NCBI RefSeq assembly: GCF_009363095.1
Contig: NZ_CP045295.1
Span: 62,001 to 126,000, forward strand
Reading direction: 5' to 3'
Source of the DNA: Paenibacillus cellulositrophicus
Lineage (GTDB): Bacteria > Bacillota > Bacilli > Paenibacillales > Paenibacillaceae
Length of the DNA stretch: 64,000 nucleotides
Part shown: positions 2,428 to 62,371 of the stretch, in pieces
Position numbering within the stretch: position 1 is the first letter of the stretch
Layout of the letters: each line of letters opens with the position of its first letter
Notes under the pieces: model-generated
What the model was told of the DNA's origin: nothing
Seen by the model: only the letters and a program-made list of their open reading frames with translations
Database searches by the model: none
Made by a program: the position numbers and the translations under genes

Positions 2428-2600
2428 TTCCATAAGAATAGTAGGCGCCCGGACCTTGCCGGGGCTCTGCCGAAAACATGTTTCAATACCTCCTCTTTAC
2501 GTTTCATACAAGTCAAATTATAATTTTGAAAAAGGCGAAGGGAAAGGCGAAAGCTACAAGCTTATTTTTCACCTTTTCATGGCAAAGGAGGGGAATTCAT

Positions 2601-4388
2601 ATGGACGTTGTCCATTACTACAATAAACTGAATCAACACTTTGCTTCCGAGCCCCGAGGCTCCTCGATCCAGGTGACGATGCAGGAGCTGGAGGACATAT
2701 GGGAATGCACCCGGCGAAATGCACAGCTGCTCGTTCAGAAAATGAAGGAACTGGGGCTTATTGATTGGCAGAGCGGTTTGGGTCGGGGCAATACGTCGCG
2801 GCTCGTTCTGGTTGCCGATGCACAGGAGCTGCTACTGGACAAAGCCAAAGAACTGGCTTTAAAAGGACATGTCGGCGAGGCGTTCGGGCTGCTGCATGCG
2901 CATACGGACCCCCTGGCCGAATCCCAATTTTCCGATTGGCTGGCCGGGCAGTTTGGTGCACAGAAGGCTTCCGACCATAAGGACATTCTCCGTTTCCCGT
3001 TTTACCGACCGGTGCTCGATCTCGAGCCGCTGTTCGTCATTCGCCGCACGGAGACCCACCTGATTCGACAGATTTTGAACACGCTGGTGGAGTTCGACAC
3101 GACCGGTCATGTGATCAAGCCGGGGCTCGCCCATTACTGGGAATCGGATCGCGAGTACTCCGAATGGACCTTTTATTTGCGGAAAGGCGTGCTGTTTCAT
3201 CACGGGAAGGTGATGACGGCTGAAGACGTTCAATTTACGTTTCAGCGCTTTGGGCAGCTGAATCCGCCGGACTGGTTCATGGCGAATGTGGCAAGGGTTG
3301 AGGTCCTCAGCGATATCAGCGTACGTTTTCACCTAAGCGAACCTAACGCCCTTTTTCTGCATCTACTGGCTTCGGAACGCTTCTCCATCGTACCTAAGGA
3401 CCTGGACCGCATTGCGGCGACCCGGGATATACGGCGGATGCCGGTAGGTACAGGCCCATTTGTCATGAAGGAGAACAGCGACAACGGCATGATCCTCGAA
3501 GCGAACGAGCGGTATTTCCAGGGCCGGCCGATGATGGATCGCATCGAGATTTGGGTTTGGCCGAACTATTTGGAGCATCTGAAGCCCGACAGACTTCAGG
3601 AACGTGACACGCAGGTGCTCTATTTTGAACCGATAGGTAAGAAGAAAACGGGCACTTTGCTGACCCGGCTCGAAGAGGGCAGTACTTATCTGACTTTTAA
3701 TCTGTCGAGGGACGGAATACTTCATGACATGAAGCTTCGGGAGGCAATCCATTTAGCTATTAACCGCGAACAGATGGTCAAGGAGCTGGGAGGAAAGAGA
3801 GAACAGCCCTCCTCGGGCTTTAATCCGTATGACCATGACGAGGCGTACGGGCGGGGCGGGGAATTGATGCTCGCAAGAGCCTGCCTGGCCGAATCCGCCT
3901 ACCGTGGAGAAATGCTGACCCTGTACACTTACGAAATGACCAGTAACGAGCTGGATACCGAATGGATCCGTCGGGCCTGCGAAGACATCGGGGTGAAGAT
4001 GGAAGTCCATGTGATGCCGATCCGTGAGCTCACGAATCCATCCGTCTTTAAACAAGCCGATATGATTTATGCCGGAGAGGTACTCGGTAACGAGCCTTCC
4101 GTGTCTTTGATCGAAATGTACCGTTCCCATTACGGATATATCCGCAACCACTTGGACGATGCCGCGAGGGATGGGGTAGACCGGGCGCTGTCCGAGGTTC
4201 TGGCAGAACCGGATTACACCGTAAGAAGGATTTTGCTGAGGCGGATTGAAGATCAGTTAAAGAGAGACCATCATCTGTTATTTATGTACCACAGCATCCA
4301 CATCATCGGACATGATCAATCCTTAGGCGGCATCACCTTGGATACCTGGGGTAAAATCAACTACAAAGATGTGTGGGTCAAGCGCTGA
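2601..4388 (+). CDS. SgrR-like transcriptional regulator with solute-binding domain
   Basis: This is a predicted cytoplasmic DNA-binding regulator of 595 residues. Residues ~1-70 resemble the SgrR N-terminal winged helix (QELEDIWECTRRNAQLLVQ). Residues ~150-595 resemble the family 5 extracellular solute-binding domain (SBP_bac_5) used in peptide and nickel ABC import, here without a signal peptide. Characterised relatives such as enteric SgrR bind a small molecule through that domain and regulate transport genes. The start at 2601 has AAAGGAGGGG just upstream; an in-frame ATG at 2478 adds a low-complexity Lys/Phe extension without a binding site and is rejected. It lies upstream of an AraC regulator and an oligopeptide-type transporter, so control of those genes is a reasonable inference. 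Confidence 0.85.
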   Translation: MDVVHYYNKLNQHFASEPRGSSIQVTMQELEDIWECTRRNAQLLVQKMKELGLIDWQSGLGRGNTSRLVLVADAQELLLDKAKELALKGHVGEAFGLLHAHTDPLAESQFSDWLAGQFGAQKASDHKDILRFPFYRPVLDLEPLFVIRRTETHLIRQILNTLVEFDTTGHVIKPGLAHYWESDREYSEWTFYLRKGVLFHHGKVMTAEDVQFTFQRFGQLNPPDWFMANVARVEVLSDISVRFHLSEPNALFLHLLASERFSIVPKDLDRIAATRDIRRMPVGTGPFVMKENSDNGMILEANERYFQGRPMMDRIEIWVWPNYLEHLKPDRLQERDTQVLYFEPIGKKKTGTLLTRLEEGSTYLTFNLSRDGILHDMKLREAIHLAINREQMVKELGGKREQPSSGFNPYDHDEAYGRGGELMLARACLAESAYRGEMLTLYTYEMTSNELDTEWIRRACEDIGVKMEVHVMPIRELTNPSVFKQADMIYAGEVLGNEPSVSLIEMYRSHYGYIRNHLDDAARDGVDRALSEVLAEPDYTVRRILLRRIEDQLKRDHHLLFMYHSIHIIGHDQSLGGITLDTWGKINYKDVWVKR

Positions 4389-4563
4389 GATTGCAGGTGC
4401 ATGCAAGGCGTGACAGGCGTCAATGCATGTAGAGAACCCTTTTTTAAAGCTGGCAGGGGCCATTCGTCCCCATACTTCCGTCTGACATACAGTTTTTAGG
4501 GTATGTGTTATCGTAAGGCTACCGTTTTCAACCAATTTCATTCGAAAAGGATAGGGATCTCTG

Positions 4564-5403
4564 ATGGATATCGGATTTATGGACTGCATCGCGAACTTTC
4601 ATACAAATCCGAGCGACAAGGATAACAAGGAAGGAATATTTCAATCCCATTCCCACCTATCCGCCGAGATCACCCTCCTGGTGAGGGGCGAAGGCTTTTA
4701 TGCTGCAGGGGAACAGAACGTTGAAGTACTTCCCGGGGATCTTCTGTTAATTCCGGCGGATCTGAAGCACAGCTACGTCTGTATCAAAGCTTGGGAAGGT
4801 TATTCGTTGCACATCTATGATCAGAACCTTCCCCCTTACTGCCAGTACTTGTTGTCGCATGCGTTTTCGCAGCGTCCGGGTCCGATCCTGAAAGCCTCTT
4901 TGACCCCTGGCGCCGCAGAGCGTGCGTTAGCCGCCATGCACCAGATCGAGGAAGAATGCAGGCGGGAAGAGAATAGCGAATATTCCTATGATCTGCTTCG
5001 CAATGCTTTGGAGACACTGCTGCTGGCTTATCATACGGGAACTTGCGACCAAGCGACTGAAGCACCCTCGGAGCATCCTGAAGAGCAAATGATTCAGGAC
5101 GCGCTGAAGGAAATTCACCAGAATTACCATACATCGCTGAAGGTGTCGGATCTGGCGGCGAACCACTATTTGTCGGAAAGCATTTTCCGCAAAAAGTTTA
5201 CCGACCGCATCGGCATGTCACCTAAACAGTACATTATTTCCCTGCGGATTGACGAAGCCAAGCGGCTGCTGCACACCTCGCGCAAGCCCGTTGAATTTAT
5301 CGCCTCCGAAGTCGGCTTCAGCTCGTCCAGCCGTTTTCATGACTTATTCGTCAAGCATGTGGGCATGACGCCGATGGAATGGAGGCGCAGCGGGGAAAGT
5401 TAA
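4564..5403 (+). CDS. AraC family transcriptional regulator
   Basis: This is a 279-residue regulator. The N-terminal half has a cupin-like sensor pattern (HSHLSAEITLLVRGEG, then LPGDLLLIPADLKHSY). The C-terminal ~100 residues hold the two helix-turn-helix motifs of AraC proteins, ending in EVGFSSSSRFHDLFVKHVGM. It lies between the SgrR-like gene and the ABC importer on the same strand and is followed by a terminator-like hairpin, so it is probably transcribed separately from the importer. Control of the downstream transporter is inferred from position. Confidence 0.9.
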   Translation: MDIGFMDCIANFHTNPSDKDNKEGIFQSHSHLSAEITLLVRGEGFYAAGEQNVEVLPGDLLLIPADLKHSYVCIKAWEGYSLHIYDQNLPPYCQYLLSHAFSQRPGPILKASLTPGAAERALAAMHQIEEECRREENSEYSYDLLRNALETLLLAYHTGTCDQATEAPSEHPEEQMIQDALKEIHQNYHTSLKVSDLAANHYLSESIFRKKFTDRIGMSPKQYIISLRIDEAKRLLHTSRKPVEFIASEVGFSSSSRFHDLFVKHVGMTPMEWRRSGES

Positions 5404-16660: not shown

Positions 16661-16872
16661 AAGCCCGATATGAATTTAATAGCGTAAACAAGCGATATGC
16701 ACAGCTACAGCCAGAAATTAATAGATTGCCTCCATTGTAAGCGTTGACATGAAGTTCTTTTGAATTTTTTCATACGTATCTCAAACCGTTTGCTTCTTTA
16801 CAGCAGGCATCCGGAAGGAGTAAGATTCAATTCGTAATCGTGAACTTGTGAACCTGAAACGTAATACTCCTT

Positions 16873-17015
16873 GATCGCTGAATTCTGAAATCAGGAGCGG
16901 GGGAACCAAAGGGAGGAAGTTAAGCCTTCGTCCCAGGGGTGAATCACTTGATGTTCATTTATTGAGTGTAGGGATACTTTCGGTCCCGAATCCGTCAGCT
17001 AACCTCGTAAGCGTT
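16873..17015 (+). ncRNA. c-di-AMP (ydaO/yuaA) riboswitch
   Basis: The leader contains the conserved blocks of this class in order: ATCGCTGAAT, then GGAGCGGGGGAACCA, then GGGGTGAATC, and the closing CTCGTAAGCG. A terminator hairpin with seven T residues follows at 17042-17080 and a KimA-like potassium importer comes next, the classical target. Known members bind c-di-AMP and turn expression off. The boundaries are approximate. Confidence 0.9.
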
Positions 17016-17041
17016 ATGAAAGAGGGATTTGTCGTGCGCGT

Positions 17042-21920: not shown

Positions 21921-21940
21921 ATTTTATAATTACGTAAAAT
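21921..21940. other. Short inverted repeat upstream of xerS (possible dif-like site)
   Basis: ATTTTA and its complement TAAAAT flank an 8-base AT-rich core 60 bp upstream of the XerS start. In streptococci and lactococci the XerS target difSL lies just upstream of xerS. I cannot match this sequence to difSL, so the call rests only on position and symmetry. Confidence 0.2.
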
Positions 21941-21946
21941 AATAAT

Positions 21947-21975
21947 TTGACGAATAAATGAATATAAGTTATTCT
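21947..21975 (+). promoter_or_regulatory. Promoter of xerS
   Basis: TTGACG at 21947-21952 and TATTCT at 21970-21975 are separated by 17 bases, a sigma-A type arrangement 25 bases before the ATG. Confidence 0.6.
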
Positions 21976-21999: not shown

Positions 22000-23070
22000 A
22001 TGGATAAAAATACGAAGCTGCATTACATGAAACGCGTTGATGATAAATGTGCGGAGCTTCCTTGGTACGTGACCGAATACATCGATAGCCGCAAACGCAA
22101 GCTGTCGCACACGACGCTGCTGAATTACTGCCACGATTACCTCATCTTTTTTGATTGGCTTGTGGCTGAGAAACTGGCTGCAGATGATCGTAAAGACATT
22201 GAATTGAATGTTCTGGAATCACTGACTGTGCGCGAAGTCGAAAATTTTCTGTCATTTCTGGAGTATCAGCTGGGCAACAACAAATACACGATCAACCGGA
22301 AATTGTCGGCGTTAAAGTCGTTGTTTGATTACCTGCAAAACAAGGCTGAAACGTCAGACCTCAATCCGTATATTCAAAGAAATGTGATGGCCAAGATCGA
22401 CTTTAATTCCATTAAGGAAAGCCAAGAAACTGTGGCGAACCGCATTGAGGGCAAAATTTTACGTGAAGACGATTTTGAGAAGTTCCGGCAGTTTGTGGCA
22501 CATGATTTCGGTGAACTGAACAAAAGCAACAAACGTATGGTCCGGTTCCACGAATTTAATCGTGAGCGGGATACGGCCATCGTATCGCTGATCCTCGGGT
22601 CAGGACTGCGTTTATCCGAGGTAGCGGGAATCAATATTGAGGATTTGGATATGAACAAAGGCCAAGTGCGCGTGCTGCGTAAAGGCAACAAAGAACAATA
22701 TGTATATTTTAGCCAGCAAGCCTTATTAGACCTGGAAAGCTACTTGAAAATCCGGGAAACACGATATGTACCGGGAAAATCGGAAAATTACTTATTTATA
22801 GCAGCACCAATCGGCCGCAAAGGAAAAAGCCGGCGGTTAACACCGAGATCGATTGAAAAGCTTATCGAAAAATACGCTGCTGCGTTTGGTAAACCGGCAC
22901 TGACGGTGCATTCTTTGAGACATTCCTTCGCAACCCGCTACCACCTGGAGAACAACGACGTACCGAGGCTGAAGAACCAGCTGGGGCATTCATCGATCCA
23001 GACGACGATGATCTATACGCATTTAACGGATGAAGAGATGAGAAAAGCCGTTAACAATATGGATAAGTGA
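22000..23070 (+). CDS. xerS: Tyrosine recombinase XerS
   Basis: This 356-residue recombinase has the length of streptococcal XerS, the single-subunit resolver of chromosome dimers. The N-terminal SAM-like core-binding domain is followed by the catalytic domain with the Arg of GSGLRLSEV, the HSLRHSFAT box, and LGHSSIQTTMIYTH with the nucleophilic Tyr. AAGGAGG lies upstream of the ATG. No phage genes flank it, which favours a housekeeping role over a phage integrase. Confidence 0.85.
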   Translation: MDKNTKLHYMKRVDDKCAELPWYVTEYIDSRKRKLSHTTLLNYCHDYLIFFDWLVAEKLAADDRKDIELNVLESLTVREVENFLSFLEYQLGNNKYTINRKLSALKSLFDYLQNKAETSDLNPYIQRNVMAKIDFNSIKESQETVANRIEGKILREDDFEKFRQFVAHDFGELNKSNKRMVRFHEFNRERDTAIVSLILGSGLRLSEVAGINIEDLDMNKGQVRVLRKGNKEQYVYFSQQALLDLESYLKIRETRYVPGKSENYLFIAAPIGRKGKSRRLTPRSIEKLIEKYAAAFGKPALTVHSLRHSFATRYHLENNDVPRLKNQLGHSSIQTTMIYTHLTDEEMRKAVNNMDK

Positions 23071-23132
23071 TGAAGTAGTGTAAACTTTGGCACATTTTCA
23101 CAAAACTCGTATTTTGTACATATGTATGCTAT

Positions 23133-23761: not shown

Positions 23762-23825
23762 AACTTCACCAGCCTTAAAAATTTTCTTTATTTTACCACA
23801 ATTTGATTTTGCATGATTGATTTAA

Positions 23826-23913
23826 AACTATCTTGCTCGTTAGCGTAATGAAGTTGCCGATCAGCATTGGCAGCTCTTCCTGTTTGTTTATTCAACTATC
23901 GTTTTCCGTTAGA
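23826..23913. repeat. Dispersed intergenic repeat, CCGTTAG family, copy 1
   Basis: The unit begins ACTATCTTGCTCGTTAG, contains the hairpin TTGCC...GGCAG, and ends CAACTATCGTTTTCCGTTAG. Other copies are at 25041-25132 and 61555-61650. Confidence 0.7.
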
Positions 23914-24008
23914 GGACTTACCTGAAATAGAACAGGTTTTTTACGAGTATTTAAGTGTAAATATTAACTTTTTGTTGATTCTCTATGTTGAACTGTTAGT
24001 TCAATGAA

Positions 24009-24923: not shown

Positions 24924-25040
24924 TATTTCTCATCCCCTAGATAAAAATAGCATTTCATACTTATGTTGACGGGATTGATAGTGATAAGTTGCAGATATAA
25001 CGAATTCGTCTTACTCGTTTTACCCGATTCATATTTCCCC

Positions 25041-25132
25041 ACTATCCAGCCCGTTAGCTTAATGAAGCTGCATATCAGCACTGGCAGTTCCTTCCTAGTC
25101 GGTTATTCAACTATCGTTTCCCGTTAGCTTAG
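25041..25132. repeat. Dispersed intergenic repeat, CCGTTAG family, copy 2
   Basis: The unit runs from ACTATCCAGCCCGTTAG to CAACTATCGTTTCCCGTTAG with an internal CTGC...GCAG hairpin. Its last bases TTA supply the stop codon of the minus-strand amidase gene. Confidence 0.75.
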
Positions 25133-26604: not shown

Positions 26605-26817
26605 ATATTAAAATACCCCCGGTACTGGTAAATTTTCGGACAACAGTAATATGGTAACATGCTGCCTTGCCAAGGGTATAGGTAAAGTTTTGATTAGATA
26701 AGAATGTATCGGTTGGGCATCGCAGTAGAGCTTGTATTTTCCCGAAGGTTAATGTTGTATCTAAAGTAATCTGCCCGTTAGCTTAATGAATTTGTGTAGT
26801 GAAATGTAGTTTGAAGC

Positions 26818-27093
26818 TTATCTAATCGGTAATCGGATTATGTTCTTGTCCTTTACGGCAATCGGTACAAGTTCTTGTCTTTGGTTCGGGACAAGAACTT
26901 GTACCGATAAAACAAAAAAGCCGCTAAAATAGCGACTTTCAATGGGACTATGTTCTTGTCCTTCGACAGCGGCATATTGGCGACCGACACCAGGGTATAC
27001 CCAACCACCGTCACGAGTTTTTACTAAAAGTATATTTCCTTGCCCATCTTCTACAAATCCACCTGTGGCAACGATATGCGTTGGAAATGGCAT
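26818..27093 (-). pseudogene. Nudix hydrolase N-terminus truncated by a palindromic element
   Basis: The first 35 residues read like a Nudix protein (PTHIVATGGFVEDGQGNILLV, then DGGWVYPG), where the family continues into the GGxVExGE catalytic box. Here the frame instead runs into the dispersed palindromic element after residue 35 (about 26989), so the catalytic helix is missing. The ribosome binding site AAGGAGG is intact. The product is probably non-functional. Confidence 0.75.
26819..26960. repeat. Dispersed palindromic element (ACAAGTTCTTGT family), copy A
   Basis: The element has a half-site ATGTTCTTGTCC, then a perfect hairpin with 17-base arms (CGGTACAAGTTCTTGTC at 26863-26879 and its complement at 26890-26906), then a small hairpin CGCTA...TAGCG that reads as a minus-strand terminator with T6, and a second half-site ATGTTCTTGTCC. 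Each arm of the big hairpin is itself a near palindrome (ACAAG-TT-CTTGT). Confidence 0.85.
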
Positions 27094-27200
27094 ATTACGA
27101 CCTCCTTATGCAGTAATGTTTGTATATTTATTTCCACAGCCTTCTCGCACTACCCTGCCCGTTAGCTTAATGAAATTGCATGGAAACATAGTTAGATACT

Positions 27201-27306
27201 TATCTAATCGGTAATCGGCTCATGTTCTTGTCCATTACGGCAAGCGGTCCAAGTTCTTGTCCTTGGCTCGGGACAAGAACTTGGACCGATAAAACAAAAA
27301 AGCCGC
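27201..27306. repeat. Dispersed palindromic element (ACAAGTTCTTGT family), copy B
   Basis: The hairpin has 18-base perfect arms (27245-27262 and 27271-27288) beginning CGGTCCAAG. Copy A has CGGTACAAG, and the opposite arm changes to match (GGACCG versus GTACCG), so the pairing is conserved by compensating change. The preceding TATCTAATCGGTAATCGG is shared with copies A and C. Confidence 0.85.
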
Positions 27307-31930: not shown

Positions 31931-32255
31931 GACTCCTCCTCCCTCCTCATAAATGGTTGAAGCCCCATATGCTGGCTTCTTCTAGCTCTTTTGGCGGCCA
32001 CATGGGAGCGGGCTCCGAAGGGGCCGCAAAGCTTGGGAACAAATGAAGATGGAACGTTCATGGACGGCATGCAACATCTCCTTGGTCAACATCCGATATA
32101 TCCCGGTAACCCCCGGGCCAAATAATATCTTTCCTGCAGATACCGTCCCAAAAGCAAATGACGGCCCTTGCATTTTGCAACTCGCTGAAATCAAGTAATC
32201 TTAGCTCCATTTCGGAATTAGCAAAATACTAGTAAATTCCTAGTGGAAACAAAAG
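31931..32255. other. Intergenic, no gene supported
   Basis: A minus-strand frame of 70 codons exists here but has no ribosome binding site and an unlikely composition. Nothing else is seen. Confidence 0.4.
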
Positions 32256-32295
32256 GAACGGTTGAAGTTAAGATCAGCTTCAATCGTTCCTTTTT
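32256..32295. terminator. Terminator of the glycosidase operon
   Basis: GGAACGGTTGAAG pairs with CTTCAATCGTTCC; TTTTT follows on the plus side and TTTT on the minus side. It lies 67 bases after the glycosidase stop on the minus strand. Confidence 0.75.
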
Positions 32296-32361
32296 AACAC
32301 TAGCAACAAGGCCTGTTAGTTCCTAACATATGCACAGCTCCTAGGTGGCTCTAAGAAAACA

Positions 32362-34233
32362 CTAATCAGCCAGTACTGGATATTCGGCGATCCGAAGTCT
32401 AGCGCATCCATATGGAATGAGTTCCAACTGCTCATCCGGCTCCTTGCTTCGCACGGGTCCAACCGGAACGGTCCCCGCAGAGTTCATTTCCATGGTCCAC
32501 TCAGGGATGCGTCTTCCGTACACTTTCAGACGCACAGGGGCATGTTTTGCCATAAACGGCTGCCGGGTAACCTCGCCCAAATTAACCTGTACCGAGTTGC
32601 CGGGATCACGGAGAATCAGGTGCAGGCCATAATTCCAAGGGGTTTCAGGGTAGATTTCCCAGTCATGATAGGGTTCATAAATGCGGTGCCTCTGCCAGCG
32701 TTCTTTCACGGGGATCACATACATCAACGGTCCCCTTTGAAGACCAACCGTGCCGTTTGCACGGGTCACCGTGCTAACACTCATCGGTAGTTCAAGCGAA
32801 ATGGAATCGCCATCATTCCAGCTTCGGTGAATGGCTGCAAAGCCTTGGACCACACTGAATTCTACCGTCTGGCCATTAATCTTGACCACAGGTGACAAGC
32901 ACCATCCGGGTATTCTTAATTTCACAGGAAATTCTAATGCCTGATCCAAAGAAAGGGCCATCTTAATACTCTCTTTAAAAGGATACTCCGTCGTCACCAG
33001 AATCGAAACCTGCTGGCCGTCTGCCACCAAAGCCGTTACCGTGCAGGGCGCATAAGATACCGCTGCCAGGCCGTTATCCTCAGTCGCCATCCATAATCTC
33101 GCAGCAAATTTCGGCCATCCTTGATGCATATTAGCCGTGCAGCAGCCAAAATGAGGTTCAATACCAAACAGATTGGCTTCATTATTATTTTCCGTCCAGT
33201 TGCGCTTAGCATGCGTACACATAATCTGGTTCGCTTGCTGATCATATTGGTGAACTTTCCAATCTGGACTGATCGCGGCAGGCAGCGCATTAAAAGCGAC
33301 CTTCTCTAGCACATCGCCAAAGCTCCCGTCACCGGTAATCCGGATCAGATGCTCAAGTGTATACATGTATTCAACGACGGCACAGAGTTCTGTGCCTTGG
33401 CTTGGATGGGTTCCCGCAAGCCATTCATCGCCGGAGAACATCCCACTCAATTGACCATGATACGTCATCACGCTTTGAATTCCCTGATAGACGGATTTTA
33501 ACTCTTCAGGATCTTTCGTCAACAGATAGGCAAGAGCCGGTTCCTTAAACGACATGGCGACATTCACCACATGCACCCTGTGGTCGAAAGCAGTCTGACG
33601 GTTCCAGTAAGGGTAATTTCTAAACAAGCCTGACCAATCCATCGTCTGGTTCCGGATTAGCTCCATCAATTCCAGCAAAAAGTTTTCGCCCGTCCGGTTG
33701 TACAGCCATTGAATACTGATCAGGTTCTCCCCTCCCCTGGCTTTCGCCCATTCGGAAAGAGGCCGTTTTGGAAGTTCCTGCAGTTGGTACCGGAAATAAG
33801 CAGTCATCAAGGTTTCCACTCGCGGATCCCCTGTATATTCCGCATGCTGTATCAGAACTTTAAGCATAATCATGCGGCTCCACCAATCATCAATGGTTTC
33901 CGGCCCGAATTGTCCATCTGCTCGAGAGCTGGAAAGAGTCCATTCGATCCAAGGCTGAACTTTCTCAATCAGCTCCTCGTCGCCGAGAAGATAAGCCAGC
34001 GGCAGGAGTCCGTCTAGATAATACGGTCCTCTTTCCCAGCTGTCTCCACGACCTCCCAGCCAACCGTTATCCGGACCTACATAGCTCCAGAATTCGTCAA
34101 GATGTCCTGTTAGACCGTTCCTTTGAATCTCGAGCTGGTCTTTCAGCCAGCCTGCAGGTTGGATCGAACCAAGCGGTAGCTCCATATAGGGAGTCGTTGC
34201 CAGCGGTTCACGGTTTATCACTGTACGCGTCAC
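32362..34233 (-). CDS. GH127-superfamily glycosidase (DUF1680-like)
   Basis: This 623-residue apparently cytoplasmic enzyme resembles the beta-L-arabinofuranosidase superfamily (GH127 and relatives). It has an all-alpha barrel N-terminal region, TELCAVVEYMYTLEHL (the Glu-x-Cys segment), and FGIEPHFGCCTANMHQGWPK, whose Cys pair matches the Zn-binding/nucleophile cysteines of GH127. A C-terminal beta-sandwich follows. There is no signal peptide, so it would act on imported oligosaccharides, consistent with the ABC importer genes just upstream. The start is GTG. The exact sugar (L-arabinofuranose or another) cannot be read from sequence. Confidence 0.85.
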   Translation of the reverse strand: MTRTVINREPLATTPYMELPLGSIQPAGWLKDQLEIQRNGLTGHLDEFWSYVGPDNGWLGGRGDSWERGPYYLDGLLPLAYLLGDEELIEKVQPWIEWTLSSSRADGQFGPETIDDWWSRMIMLKVLIQHAEYTGDPRVETLMTAYFRYQLQELPKRPLSEWAKARGGENLISIQWLYNRTGENFLLELMELIRNQTMDWSGLFRNYPYWNRQTAFDHRVHVVNVAMSFKEPALAYLLTKDPEELKSVYQGIQSVMTYHGQLSGMFSGDEWLAGTHPSQGTELCAVVEYMYTLEHLIRITGDGSFGDVLEKVAFNALPAAISPDWKVHQYDQQANQIMCTHAKRNWTENNNEANLFGIEPHFGCCTANMHQGWPKFAARLWMATEDNGLAAVSYAPCTVTALVADGQQVSILVTTEYPFKESIKMALSLDQALEFPVKLRIPGWCLSPVVKINGQTVEFSVVQGFAAIHRSWNDGDSISLELPMSVSTVTRANGTVGLQRGPLMYVIPVKERWQRHRIYEPYHDWEIYPETPWNYGLHLILRDPGNSVQVNLGEVTRQPFMAKHAPVRLKVYGRRIPEWTMEMNSAGTVPVGPVRSKEPDEQLELIPYGCARLRIAEYPVLAD

Positions 34234-46331: not shown

Positions 46332-46378
46332 CATATGTGTTCTTGTCTTTTTCGGCAAACGATATATGTTCTTGTCGT
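46332..46378. repeat. Divergent copy of the palindromic element (copy D)
   Basis: Two half-sites TTCTTGTC are separated by CTTTTTCGGCAAACG, matching the spacing and the CGGCAA block of copies A-C, but the large hairpin's right arm is missing. An inverted pair ACATATG/CATATGT brackets the left side. Confidence 0.5.
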
Positions 46379-46451
46379 CTTGCAATTGGTTACTTTTCTA
46401 ATGCATCCTTACATTCAACTGAGAGCAATCAAAACGTGATATGCCTTCAAA

Positions 46452-46763: not shown

Positions 46764-46918
46764 AGTTAGATATTTAACTAATCGGTAATCGGAACATGTT
46801 CTTGTCCTTTACGGCAATCGGTACAAGTCCTTGTCCTCGACTCGGGACAAGAACTTGTACCGATAAAACAAAAAAGCCGCTAAAATAGCGACTTCATATG
46901 GGACCATGTTCTTGTCCC
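46764..46918. repeat. Dispersed palindromic element (ACAAGTTCTTGT family), copy C
   Basis: The layout is that of copy A including the AATCGGTAATCGG lead, the large hairpin (here with one mismatch, CAAGTCCTTGTCC), the CGCTA...TAGCG terminator and the final ATGTTCTTGTCC. Orientation is the same as copies A and B. Confidence 0.85.
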
Positions 46919-46945
46919 CCGACATCGTTTTAAACAAAAAATAAA

Positions 46946-46980
46946 AAAACCGTTGGGATTAATCATCAACGGTTTTTTAA
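46946..46980. terminator. Bidirectional terminator hairpin
   Basis: AAAAAACCGTTG and CAACGGTTTTTT pair around GGATTAATCAT. Confidence 0.75.
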
Positions 46981-47092
46981 AATTCAACTTTTTAATAAAT
47001 AGATCAACCGATTTTTGGAGTTGTCGGATGTTCTCATCATCATCAGGTTCGCTCATGACTTTCCCGCGCAAGATCGAAGCTTGCTCAAAATA

Positions 47093-47516
47093 TTACTTCT
47101 GCACCGCTTCTTTCAGAATTTCGACCTTCTGATCCTTGGACATATCCCATGTGGTTGAAATGCTGTATTCGAAGCCACCTTCATGCCAAAAAACGTATTT
47201 TGGATAGATATGTGCCGGTAATTCATCCTCAAAGAAACCTTTTTTCTTGCTTCCTTCTGAGTCCAACGTATATTTCGAAATGGCCAGCGTATCTTTCCCG
47301 TTCGTATATTCAAGACGGATGGTTGCCGCCTCTTTCCAGTCTATCTTTTTCGCATAGACGGGTTTACCGCTCTTCTTGCCTTCGGCCCTTACTTCATCAA
47401 GGAATTTTCCTTCGGTTGGACCTTCAATTCTTGCTTTGGAAAACTTATATCCCTCCGGCAAGTTGGCGGGCTGCTTCAGAATGGAGCCCTCGAGCGTAGC
47501 GCCTAGCTTGCAAAGG
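47093..47516 (-). pseudogene. C-terminal fragment of a DUF4367-like protein
   Basis: The frame from ~47516 reads LEGSILKQPANLPEGYKFS onwards and ends EYSISTTWDMSKDQKVEIL plus EAVQK, the pattern of DUF4367 domains found at the end of membrane-anchored, sometimes anti-sigma-like, proteins. No start codon with a binding site is present upstream and the N-terminal membrane part is missing. The ATG at 47461 lies within the domain. Confidence 0.6.
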
Positions 47517-47517
47517 A

Positions 47518-48052
47518 TTGACGATAATGAAACTTGTACTTTCTGGCGCTATAAAAAAGCACTCCAACGACGACCTTATAGGCTATTATTGGAGTGTTTC
47601 CCTATTTGGTTATTCGGTTGTCCCTATAATAAATCTAAGCGCTGTTACTCAACCAACACAAAAAGATACAGCATTTGTTTGCCCTCAAGGTCACCTCAAT
47701 AGTTTCGTTTCGAATTCCCGGCAGCTCCGATTTAACTCGTGCAAGTCCCAATACCCAATCCTCAGTTGCCTGGCACATCTCGATCGTTTGGTCGATATAA
47801 TTCTGTTGCATCTCAAGCAAGATAGGCTGTGCTGAGTATAACCAACGTCCAAGACTGTGATGCAGCATGAGCACTTCCTTTTCCTTGTCATAATTGTACC
47901 CATTCCTTTCGCTTTTCTCGAGACACAAGACGGAATGAAATACTTGAGCATTGAGCGATTGTTATACTCTTGAGTACATGGATGTCAGTACACTACAAAT
48001 CTCGCAGAGGGGAATGGGCGACCCCCTTACGAGGTGACCGCAAGTCCGGAAC
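47518..48052. other. Intergenic region with an unrecognised frame
   Basis: A hairpin with arms CACTCCAA/TTGGAGTG lies at about 47560-47603. A minus-strand frame at ~47635-47928 (MLHHSLGRWLYSAQPILLEM within it) has protein-like composition but I recognise nothing and it lacks a convincing ribosome binding site. Confidence 0.3.
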
Positions 48053-49636
48053 TCAGTCTTTAGTATTATATTGTGAGTAAACTTCCTGAGCCTCTTTCAT
48101 CACTTTATCTCCACCCATACTCATCCATTCAGAAACAAATTTGTCGAAGTTCTTTAAGTCACGGCGACCGGTAATGAAATCAATAAACGTCTTCAACGTA
48201 TACTGATCAAGACGATCAAAGTACTCGTTGTAAATGGGCTTATGAATTGGGAACAATATATCATATTTCCCTACCCCCACTTTTTCCGCATTCTTCCGCA
48301 ATTCAGCATATTTAGGAGCAGTCATAAATGGTGCCTGTATATCGTAATTGTTAAACATTCCATCGTAGTGATACACGCTGCGATCAATCCCAAACTTCAA
48401 TTGCTCGTCTTTTTTGTCATAGGGCGGAATCCATTCATAAGAATCACCATTCTTATTGTAAGTAACCCCTTCCTTTCCAAAGTAAGAAACTTCTAAATAG
48501 TCTTCGTCAAAGTTAAACGCTTCAATCATTTCAATATACTTAATCATCTTCTCAGGCTCTTTCTCCATATGCTTCATAAATTGAAGACCTGTATTGCTCA
48601 TCGGTTGAATTTGTCCGATTCCAAATGCACCATTCGGGCCCTTAGGACCGCTCGAAAGCAACCATTTTGCATTTGGGATTTTCTCAACGTATTTCCCATC
48701 AAAGAAAGCAGCTGCCGGGAGAAAACTCCACCAGCCCCCTTGTATCATTCCCACCTTAGAGTCAAAGACTTTCTGATCCAAATTGTCCGATTTATTAATC
48801 ACAAACTCAGGATCAATCAATTGCTCGTCGTACCAACGCTTCAAGACAGCGAGTGCTTCCTTAGTCTCTGGTTCAATTTCACCGCGAGTAATCTTTCCAT
48901 CCTTCTCATAGAATATTCCTAGATAGCTGTCGAACGCTCCGAATACAGAACTGAACAGCCCTCCTAGATCGCTAGGAGATCCCAAGGAAGTGGTTAGCCC
49001 GTAGGTATCCTTCTTCCCATTATGATCAGGATCATCATTTCGAAACTTGATCAACATATCTTCAAATTCAGCTAGCGTTTCAGGTTTTTTATTAATTCCG
49101 AGCTTATCAAGCCAGTCTTGACGTATACCGAGAACGTTCATGGACGGTCCGAGTGTCCATATATTAGGCATGGTATAATTCTTCCCATTACGATTAAAAT
49201 ATTTGAACAGATCTTCATCCGTATTCTCTTTAAGCCAAGCCATGTACTTAGGTGCATGTTTTTCCAACAACTCAACAGGGATTTCTGCAAATTGCCCTTG
49301 CTCTACATATTTATCATATTCTGAGAGAGTAATATTTTTAATGTAGTCAGGAGCCTCGCCTGATACGATCATAAGATTCATCTTTTCCTTATAGTTCTCG
49401 CCCCCGACCAGATGCTCTATATCAACATTAAAACGGTTTTCTGCATATTCTTTTGTAAAAGCATGGTCCACTGGTAGAGCTGAAGTCCAAAACTCCATAT
49501 GCATCTTTTTTGAGCCGTTTCCACCTTTTTGGGATTCTTGCGAATTTTGATTTTCTTTCTCTGCACATCCAGCCACAACAGTAGCCGCCAGAATAATGAA
49601 TAATCCCATTTTAAACCATACGATCCTCTTCTTCAT
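48053..49636 (-). CDS. ABC transporter substrate-binding lipoprotein (LplA-like)
   Basis: This 527-residue lipoprotein has signal peptide and lipobox AATVVAGCAEKE (Cys ~24) and the long family 1 binding-protein fold of the LplA/YtcQ type (NVLGIRQDWLDKLGINKKPE). These bind oligosaccharides for permeases of the LplB/LplC type, which are encoded upstream. No ATPase is in the operon, so a shared ATPase is expected. Confidence 0.92.
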   Translation of the reverse strand: MKKRIVWFKMGLFIILAATVVAGCAEKENQNSQESQKGGNGSKKMHMEFWTSALPVDHAFTKEYAENRFNVDIEHLVGGENYKEKMNLMIVSGEAPDYIKNITLSEYDKYVEQGQFAEIPVELLEKHAPKYMAWLKENTDEDLFKYFNRNGKNYTMPNIWTLGPSMNVLGIRQDWLDKLGINKKPETLAEFEDMLIKFRNDDPDHNGKKDTYGLTTSLGSPSDLGGLFSSVFGAFDSYLGIFYEKDGKITRGEIEPETKEALAVLKRWYDEQLIDPEFVINKSDNLDQKVFDSKVGMIQGGWWSFLPAAAFFDGKYVEKIPNAKWLLSSGPKGPNGAFGIGQIQPMSNTGLQFMKHMEKEPEKMIKYIEMIEAFNFDEDYLEVSYFGKEGVTYNKNGDSYEWIPPYDKKDEQLKFGIDRSVYHYDGMFNNYDIQAPFMTAPKYAELRKNAEKVGVGKYDILFPIHKPIYNEYFDRLDQYTLKTFIDFITGRRDLKNFDKFVSEWMSMGGDKVMKEAQEVYSQYNTKD

Positions 49637-61505: not shown

Positions 61506-61554
61506 AATAGATTGCATATCATGACCTTTTATAAGGCGTCGTACATAATCTTAA

Positions 61555-61650
61555 ACTATCCAGTCCATTAGTTTAGAAATAGGCAGCCGGTCTTATTGAT
61601 CGGCTGCCTTCAAATATCTTTATTGAGCTATCGTTTCCCGTAAGCTGAAT
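61555..61650. repeat. Dispersed intergenic repeat, CCGTTAG family, copy 3
   Basis: The unit runs from ACTATCCAGTCCATTAG to GAGCTATCGTTTCCCGTAAG; its internal hairpin is GGCAGCCG...CGGCTGCC, longer than in copies 1 and 2 but at the same place. Confidence 0.7.
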
Positions 61651-62166: not shown

Positions 62167-62371
62167 TTGAATCCCTCCCTCAAGAGAAATCATTCAATAC
62201 CTTCCATATCTTCTCCACTGCAATAAATAATCCTCTGTACCACCGCATCCGTTCGTTAACCTTGTGTAACATCCCTACAGAGATTGGCTTAAACAATCCG
62301 ATTGATTTTTGAAGATAAAACTATCGTGTCCCGTTAGTGTAATCCTCGCTCGTTTAGTAACGAGGAATTGC

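Follow-up and report, generated by a model that had tools for sequence, protein, structure and literature searches.

The attC sites of integrons consist of two pairs of arms around a variable stem, much like the class II double sites described below, and have an R box with the consensus GTTRRRY. In the pdif modules of Acinetobacter plasmids, accessory genes lie between short Xer-type sites and are shuffled by XerC/XerD supplied in trans; these dif modules lie between oppositely oriented sites. Integrons are known mostly from Gram-negative bacteria, as the abstract of PMC11641012 also words it. Searches of the open-access literature for integrons and attC sites in Paenibacillus, XerS, MITEs, pdif, tyrosine-recombinase cassettes and Gram-positive integrons returned, by titles and the first lines of abstracts, no system of the kind described here, and CCCGTTAG gave no match together with Paenibacillus. 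Here, we follow up a hairpin repeat that a sequence-only reading had reported from a 64-kb stretch of DNA (the window) and had explained as a mobile element moved in trans, a REP-like element or a protein-binding array, an interpretation that is partly supported by our results. We call the reported repeat class I and a second, interleaved site family class II; the analysis covered the window, its own genome and relatives. Judged from the sequences compared, we lean towards reading the class I repeat as a site of site-specific recombination at the borders of mobile gene cassettes, integron-like in its working.

The class I copies of the window and their parts are as follows.
26761-26968, plus strand: copy A, full, delimited by boundary profiles, with a class II-type left site at 26761-26786 (left arm weak) and boxes at 26841-26850, 26870-26879, 26890-26899 (inverted) and 26951-26960
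26861-26908, plus strand: main hairpin of copy A, arms 26861-26879 and 26890-26908, supported by covariation
26914-26939, minus strand: intrinsic terminator of copy A, called from its sequence and identical with helix 2 of the covariation test
26951-26968, plus strand: 18-bp right-end core of copy A, TGTTCTTGTCCTTCGACA, from the core pattern and the boundary profile
27145-27306, plus strand: copy B, truncated, with a left site at 27145-27170 and hairpin arms 27243-27261 and 27272-27290, lacking the right end
46338-46384, plus strand: copy D, a short form of another subclass, with boxes 46338-46347 and 46367-46376 and no hairpin
46766-46924, plus strand: copy C, with hairpin arms 46817-46835 and 46846-46864 and core 46907-46924, lacking a class II left site but complete on the right

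Three full copies and one divergent copy had been counted before; all four are where they were placed, but copy B breaks off inside the terminator, and both the second arm of this terminator and the right end are absent. The element is also longer than first described, given that copies A and B begin at a CTGCCCGTTAG site (26761 and 27145); that of copy A, with its weak left arm, falls under the threshold of the class II scan. The box TGTTCTTGTC occurs 14 times in the window with up to one mismatch, against 4.25 expected, and none of 100 shuffles reaches this number. No encoded protein is seen in the repeat, in agreement with the sequence-only reading, which had also noted the minus-strand terminator of copy A; genes read leftwards would be served by it. 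Separately, a 569-bp stretch is present twice at 100% identity, in the window at 46932-47500 (C1:108932-109500) and at C1:142752-143320, starting at the 8th and 9th base past two different class I cores 34 kb apart and ending inside a gene.

The right end of class I is TGTTCTTGTC-N4-GACA, and it is sharp because base composition drops to background straight after GACA in the 174 of 216 cores with that ending. The left end is sharp where a class II site heads the copy; in the 44 copies without such a head, conservation fades over about 30 bp to the left of the first box. An A-to-C change in one hairpin arm of copies A and B had been reported as matched in the other, and this holds (GGTACAAG/CTTGTACC versus GGTCCAAG/CTTGGACC), together with a second arm change in copy B, T to G at 27244, that has no partner change. 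The class I hairpin is under selection, as had been suggested from this one pair: across 82 aligned copies (82 of 84 references; 51 of 63 for the class II alignment), 12 of 24 pairs are altered on both sides compared with 5.5 in shuffles, 94.1% of cells are paired compared with 88.8%, and the covariation score is 0.144 compared with 0.058, values that 0 of 500 shuffles attained in each case. Ten of the two-sided changes fall in the 19-pair hairpin and two in the five-pair terminator stem, and both shuffles and slid partners fall short of this. A pattern demanding the inner nine pairs (up to three substitutions in the pattern) had been used to preselect the copies; of the 10 pairs that covary in the main hairpin, 9 fall beyond those nine. 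Mean column identity is 83% for class I and 62% for class II.

Few copies is not what we find. In the own genome, 29 matches reduce to 20 places once 9 cases of the hairpin meeting itself in reverse are removed, and 18 of these places are on the plus strand: 12 long copies at C1:88.8-323 kb, all plus, and six weaker ones (two near 2.76 Mb); the remaining two are weak, on the minus strand at 5.74-5.75 Mb. The exact core pattern occurs 18 times forward and once in reverse (control, 0 and 0). An exact 37-base centre was found in 27 stretches of genome contigs, 25 from Paenibacillus, one from Fontibacillus and one filed as Neobacillus. The core pattern is present in 87 of 120 genomes, own genome included, while controls give 32 hits over the 120; single hits may therefore be chance, whereas arrays of 9 to 40 hits, as seen in G000, G004, G005, G010, G046, G055, G063, G065 and G110, cannot be. 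Seven Paenibacillus plasmid records carry the repeat at 31 places, and the gene tables of two P. urinalis plasmids that we compared are the same at the site. No class I match was found in phages by distant blastn, and no viral contig matched two exact patterns.

Class II sites consist of two 11-bp arms around 4-5 bp and share regions and direction with class I. They come in two forms, IIa (TTrAACTATC-CTGCC-CGTTAGYTYAA) and IIb (TTGARCTATCG-TTTCC-CGTTAGYTYAA), which are often paired around a stem, and for 47 of 51 such pairs the fold is more stable than the average over 20 shuffles of the same pair. A pattern scan placed the following in the window.
23823-23917, plus strand: class II double site (IIa, stem, IIb)
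25037-25132, plus strand: class II double site
61551-61649, plus strand: class II double site
62316-62342, plus strand: single class II (IIb) site

The own genome has a second dense class II cluster at 2.71-2.77 Mb, and CTATCGTTTCCCGTTAG with up to one mismatch is found in 78 of 120 genomes, compared with two hits in all for the reversed control. The two families are often adjacent: TGCCCGTTAG (up to one mismatch) lies within 300 bp to the left of 63 of 149 class I cores, 46 times at 143-189 bp, compared with 9 of 149 on the right; for the other 86 cores, the 300 bp to the left hold no class II motif.

Next to the array, the window holds the gene of an XerS-family tyrosine recombinase, P0001, which scores 391 bits against NF003462 (cut-off 267).
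21928-21957, plus strand: upstream block, dif candidate, conserved in 17 of 17 aligned genomes
22000-23070, plus strand: XerS-family tyrosine recombinase P0001, at the GC-skew inversion and neighbour of the array
23096-23125, plus strand: downstream block, second dif candidate, conserved in 15 of 17

GC skew of the own genome switches sign at this gene and again near dnaA at 3.78 Mb, and over up to 9 kb it is positive to the left and negative to the right of XerS in all 18 genomes covered, of which 17 have a XerS of this type at intact length and one has a broken copy. This window appears to contain the replication terminus, at XerS, and one of the two flanking blocks is probably dif. Because the skew inverts there in 18 of 18 genomes, P0001 is best read as the dimer resolvase and a landmark; it has what belongs to an XerS/dif pair, an XerS protein at the terminus and an adjacent conserved site. 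Site orientation flips at the terminus, with 58 of 65 sites in the 18 neighbourhoods on the minus strand to the left of XerS or on the plus strand to the right (four genomes have no site there, and G036 and four further broken XerS copies are outside this set); the seven exceptions, one each in G005, G012, G028, G039 and G071 and two in G065, include six within 1.6 kb of XerS. Three further observations were made: contig C2 of G000 has its own dnaA (328098-329417) and is a second replicon or a contaminant; the Alkalihalophilus pseudofirmus plasmid NC_013792.1 has a 60% identical XerS-like gene at 32125-33165 and three matching places; and a c-di-AMP riboswitch lies at 16866-17029 of the window (Rfam RF00379, 97 bits).

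Over six arrays in five genomes, 341 sites of both families are on the plus strand and 10 on the minus strand, and they lie between genes. Of the ORF bases in these arrays, 82-87% are on the minus strand, compared with 0.69 in eight samples from outside the array on the same replichore. Site direction is stricter than gene direction and thus does not arise from leading-strand genes alone. Of 253 grouped sites, 227 have a right-hand gene on the minus strand, with its 3' end towards the site, and 205 have a left-hand gene on that strand; 10 further grouped sites lie inside an ORF. Across the own genome, orientation follows GC skew for all 19 of the exact class I cores, for 20 of 21 copies of CTGCCCGTTAGYT and for all 12 IIb sites. 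ORFs near sites in the window encode an amidase, MerR and TetR regulators, a short-chain dehydrogenase, two MFS transporters, a patatin-like protein and a weak match to a solute-binding protein, with one of ten lacking a Pfam match, and similar accessory functions, named by reading of the sequences, lie near sites elsewhere.

DNA shared between arrays often ends at sites. We compared 191 segments with 745 usable ends (at least 300 bp, at least 85% identity), leaving out shorter segments, segments that are more than half sites and 11 loci (8 duplicate stretches, one further G005 contig and 2 plasmid loci). Of these ends, 79 lie no more than 10 bp from a class II site, compared with a mean of 5.0 and a maximum of 9 in 20 random placements, and 21 are equally close to a class I core (mean 3.1, maximum 7). 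Fourteen of the 191 segments run from site to site, each end being at most 20 bp from a site in one and the same partner (3 within G005 and 2 within G010), a few of them being one cassette seen in several pairs. Around class I cores of seven genomes, only the left flank is shared in 10 pairs, only the right in 4 and both in none; 6 pairs of overlapping cores of one locus were set aside, and the pairs are not all independent, six of the ten involving G110. A wider comparison gave 30 left-only pairs and none with both, and its 664 right-only pairs, inflated by class I tails, were set aside. At some class I sites the right joint is ragged, over about 7 to 60 bp.

Alignment of flanks, as the sequence-only reading had proposed, gave no empty site among 470 elements, with few close strains in the comparison; 8 duplicate loci, elements less than 200 bp from a sequence end and class II sites that head a class I copy were left out. 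At two places, both partners are occupied and both flanks are shared (L032 with G110 at 98% and 96%, L032 with L261 at 88%), so flanks are not always exchanged. For nine of the 470 elements the flanks are further apart in the partner, all within one array; the best size difference, in G010, has a gene truncated 26 bp before the site and is not a clean cassette gain.

An XerC/D-like protein encoded inside the G010 array, here called IntP, has relatives in 29 of 120 genomes (E 1e-40 or better); at that threshold, none is found in the own genome. Among 30 IntP loci, a class II site lies no more than 260 bp upstream in 15 (13 at 125-151 bp) and downstream in 15 (12 at 42-45 bp), with sites on both sides in 8 and on at least one in 22. 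The class II scan gave 47 hits on one strand of the real loci, compared with 2 in shuffled loci, and a terminator-like stem adjoins IIa in the six loci inspected. The 8 loci without class II sites comprise five distant relatives (38-53% identity), the partial copies L235 and L236, and L224 (74%). Framed by class II sites, IntP is a candidate enzyme for class II. More IntP gene pieces, 77-98% identical, lie at 47653-48882 of the G010 array (reverse orientation), beside an intact-looking copy.

No recombinase was found linked to class I. No class II site lies within 1.5 kb of the Y-type recombinases L189-L192 and L194-L196 or of a 298-aa recombinase situated 41 kb from the second cluster; near L190 there are three class I boxes, at a distance of about 480 bp, and near L196 there is one. 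The 25 largest gene families adjoining sites include no recognisable transposase, and the top family, XerS, is probably a sampling effect, XerS loci having been chosen for the set. Unpaired hairpin arms enclose a gene in four cases, and the two inspected have no recombinase inside. In L044, a 658-aa protein with an apparently sigma-factor-like start (2486-4973) lies between a half element and the complementary half element, which looks as if two sites had recombined around the gene.

On the cassette reading, the array would start at the replication terminus and extend over one replichore (in G005, to either side of the terminus), and a cassette would be a gene, usually read towards the terminus, that carries a site at its 3' end. 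Cassettes would be joined and released by a trans-acting tyrosine recombinase at the 18-bp core TGTTCTTGTC-N4-GACA, and the same recombination may take place at the class II site, often at the left end. Its hairpin may enable the class I site to fold as a single strand, and the minus-strand terminator would insulate neighbours. Several results stand against cassettes: the 470 elements include no empty-versus-filled pair, two places keep both flanks in both partners, the size difference in G010 is no clean cassette gain, the ragged class I joints are unlike those of integron cassettes, no recombinase was found linked to class I, IntP is absent from the own genome at E 1e-40, and 86 of 149 class I cores lack a class II motif on the left. 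Moreover, RecA recombination between dispersed repeats could also place breakpoints at repeats, despite the mean column identities of 62% and 83%. Because of the lack of an empty site, the partly ragged joints and the missing class I enzyme, MITE-like elements stay in contention, although we regard them as unlikely; they would hop near gene 3' ends with a strand preference from replication, and the array look and exchanged flanks would come from later recombination between copies. The sharp right end of class I, its ragged right joints, the own-genome orientation that tracks GC skew and the class II form in which the same ends enclose a recombinase gene, as in autonomous elements, all suit such elements; whole segments with genes that span from site to site, a left end that is only partly seen and the same lack of an empty site, among few close strains, do not. 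Of the three explanations offered at first, a mobile element moved in trans comes nearest, given the sharp right end, the covarying hairpin, the many copies, including those on plasmids, and the lack of a gene of its own, with the missing empty site as the part that did not hold.

XerS was at first our working hypothesis for the integrase of the array, and the first class II site does start 770 bp to the right of the gene, in 5 of 18 genomes there are class I sites no more than 250 bp from it, and a streptococcal difSL half, TTTTCTTGAAA, given in PMC5357621, has TTCTTG in common with TGTTCTTGTC. We dropped it after GC skew, the position of dnaA and the flank alignment had marked the terminus, and now consider it very unlikely: the skew switches at the gene in all 18 genomes, the flanking dif-like blocks are unlike either site class, and arrays occur in G010, G046, G063 and G110, which have no close XerS relative. 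Spread of a REP-like element by a RAYT or an IS200/IS605-type transposase is hardly credible to us; extragenic hairpins and a strand bias with replication would agree with it, but one IS200/IS605 TnpA query found nothing linked in 2.39 Mb beyond the plasmid of that TnpA itself and a G055 fragment, and class II has paired arms of the tyrosine-recombinase type. We give as little weight to immobile terminators, operators or replication-terminus signals under selection, for which the minus-strand terminator (helix 2) and the flip of orientation at the terminus speak, given the breakpoint enrichment, the plasmid copies and the second class II cluster at 2.71-2.77 Mb. The repeated boxes would fit a protein-binding array, but the sites mark the ends of exchanged DNA, which a plain operator would not explain.

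Beyond the site itself, we propose, tentatively and with slightly less than even confidence, that Paenibacillus has an integron-like system independent of IntI integrons, with chromosomal arrays of hundreds of kb and two site families, one served by XerC/D-like recombinases that themselves travel as cassettes and the other, the reported repeat with its covarying hairpin, by an undiscovered enzyme. If true, soil Firmicutes would have a cassette platform, with transporters, regulators and metabolic genes near sites and with copies on plasmids; it would account for much of the gene traffic near the Paenibacillus chromosome terminus and help to find movable genes, and hairpin-site cassette capture would have evolved more than once.

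Among known systems, REP/RAYT elements are alike in being extragenic palindromes in many copies, but the element here is longer, composite and asymmetric, lies at the ends of exchanged DNA and has no linked Y1 transposase with the one query used. The XerS/difSL system is alike in that XerS, by its NCBIfam model, lies beside the array and TGTTCTTGTC resembles one difSL half as given in PMC5357621; however, XerS here lies where the skew inverts and has conserved blocks beside it, which the array sites do not match. Acinetobacter pdif modules share accessory genes between short Xer-type sites, an enzyme in trans and shuffling, whereas the sites here are mainly chromosomal, have 4-5 bp between arms and point nearly all in one direction (341 plus, 10 minus) rather than against each other, and class I has a long hairpin and a terminator. 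Integrons are alike in having gene cassettes with a hairpin site at the gene 3' end, one orientation and long arrays, and both the one-way sites at gene 3' ends (341 versus 10; 227 of 253) and exchange with breakpoints at sites, the latter from comparison and with class I joints partly ragged, are found here. By its defining parts, the evidence favours that the class I system is not an integron: against the integron-integrase model TIGR02249 (cut-off 265 bits), IntP, P0001 and the L169 protein score 77.3, 78.5 and 71.4 bits, all far below an IntI-family integrase, and in place of the attC R box the class II arm has GTTAGYT and the class I consensus has no such box. The arms here are CGTTAGYTYAA and not the attC consensus, the class I site carries a terminator and partly ragged right joints, and two site families are mixed in the same arrays.
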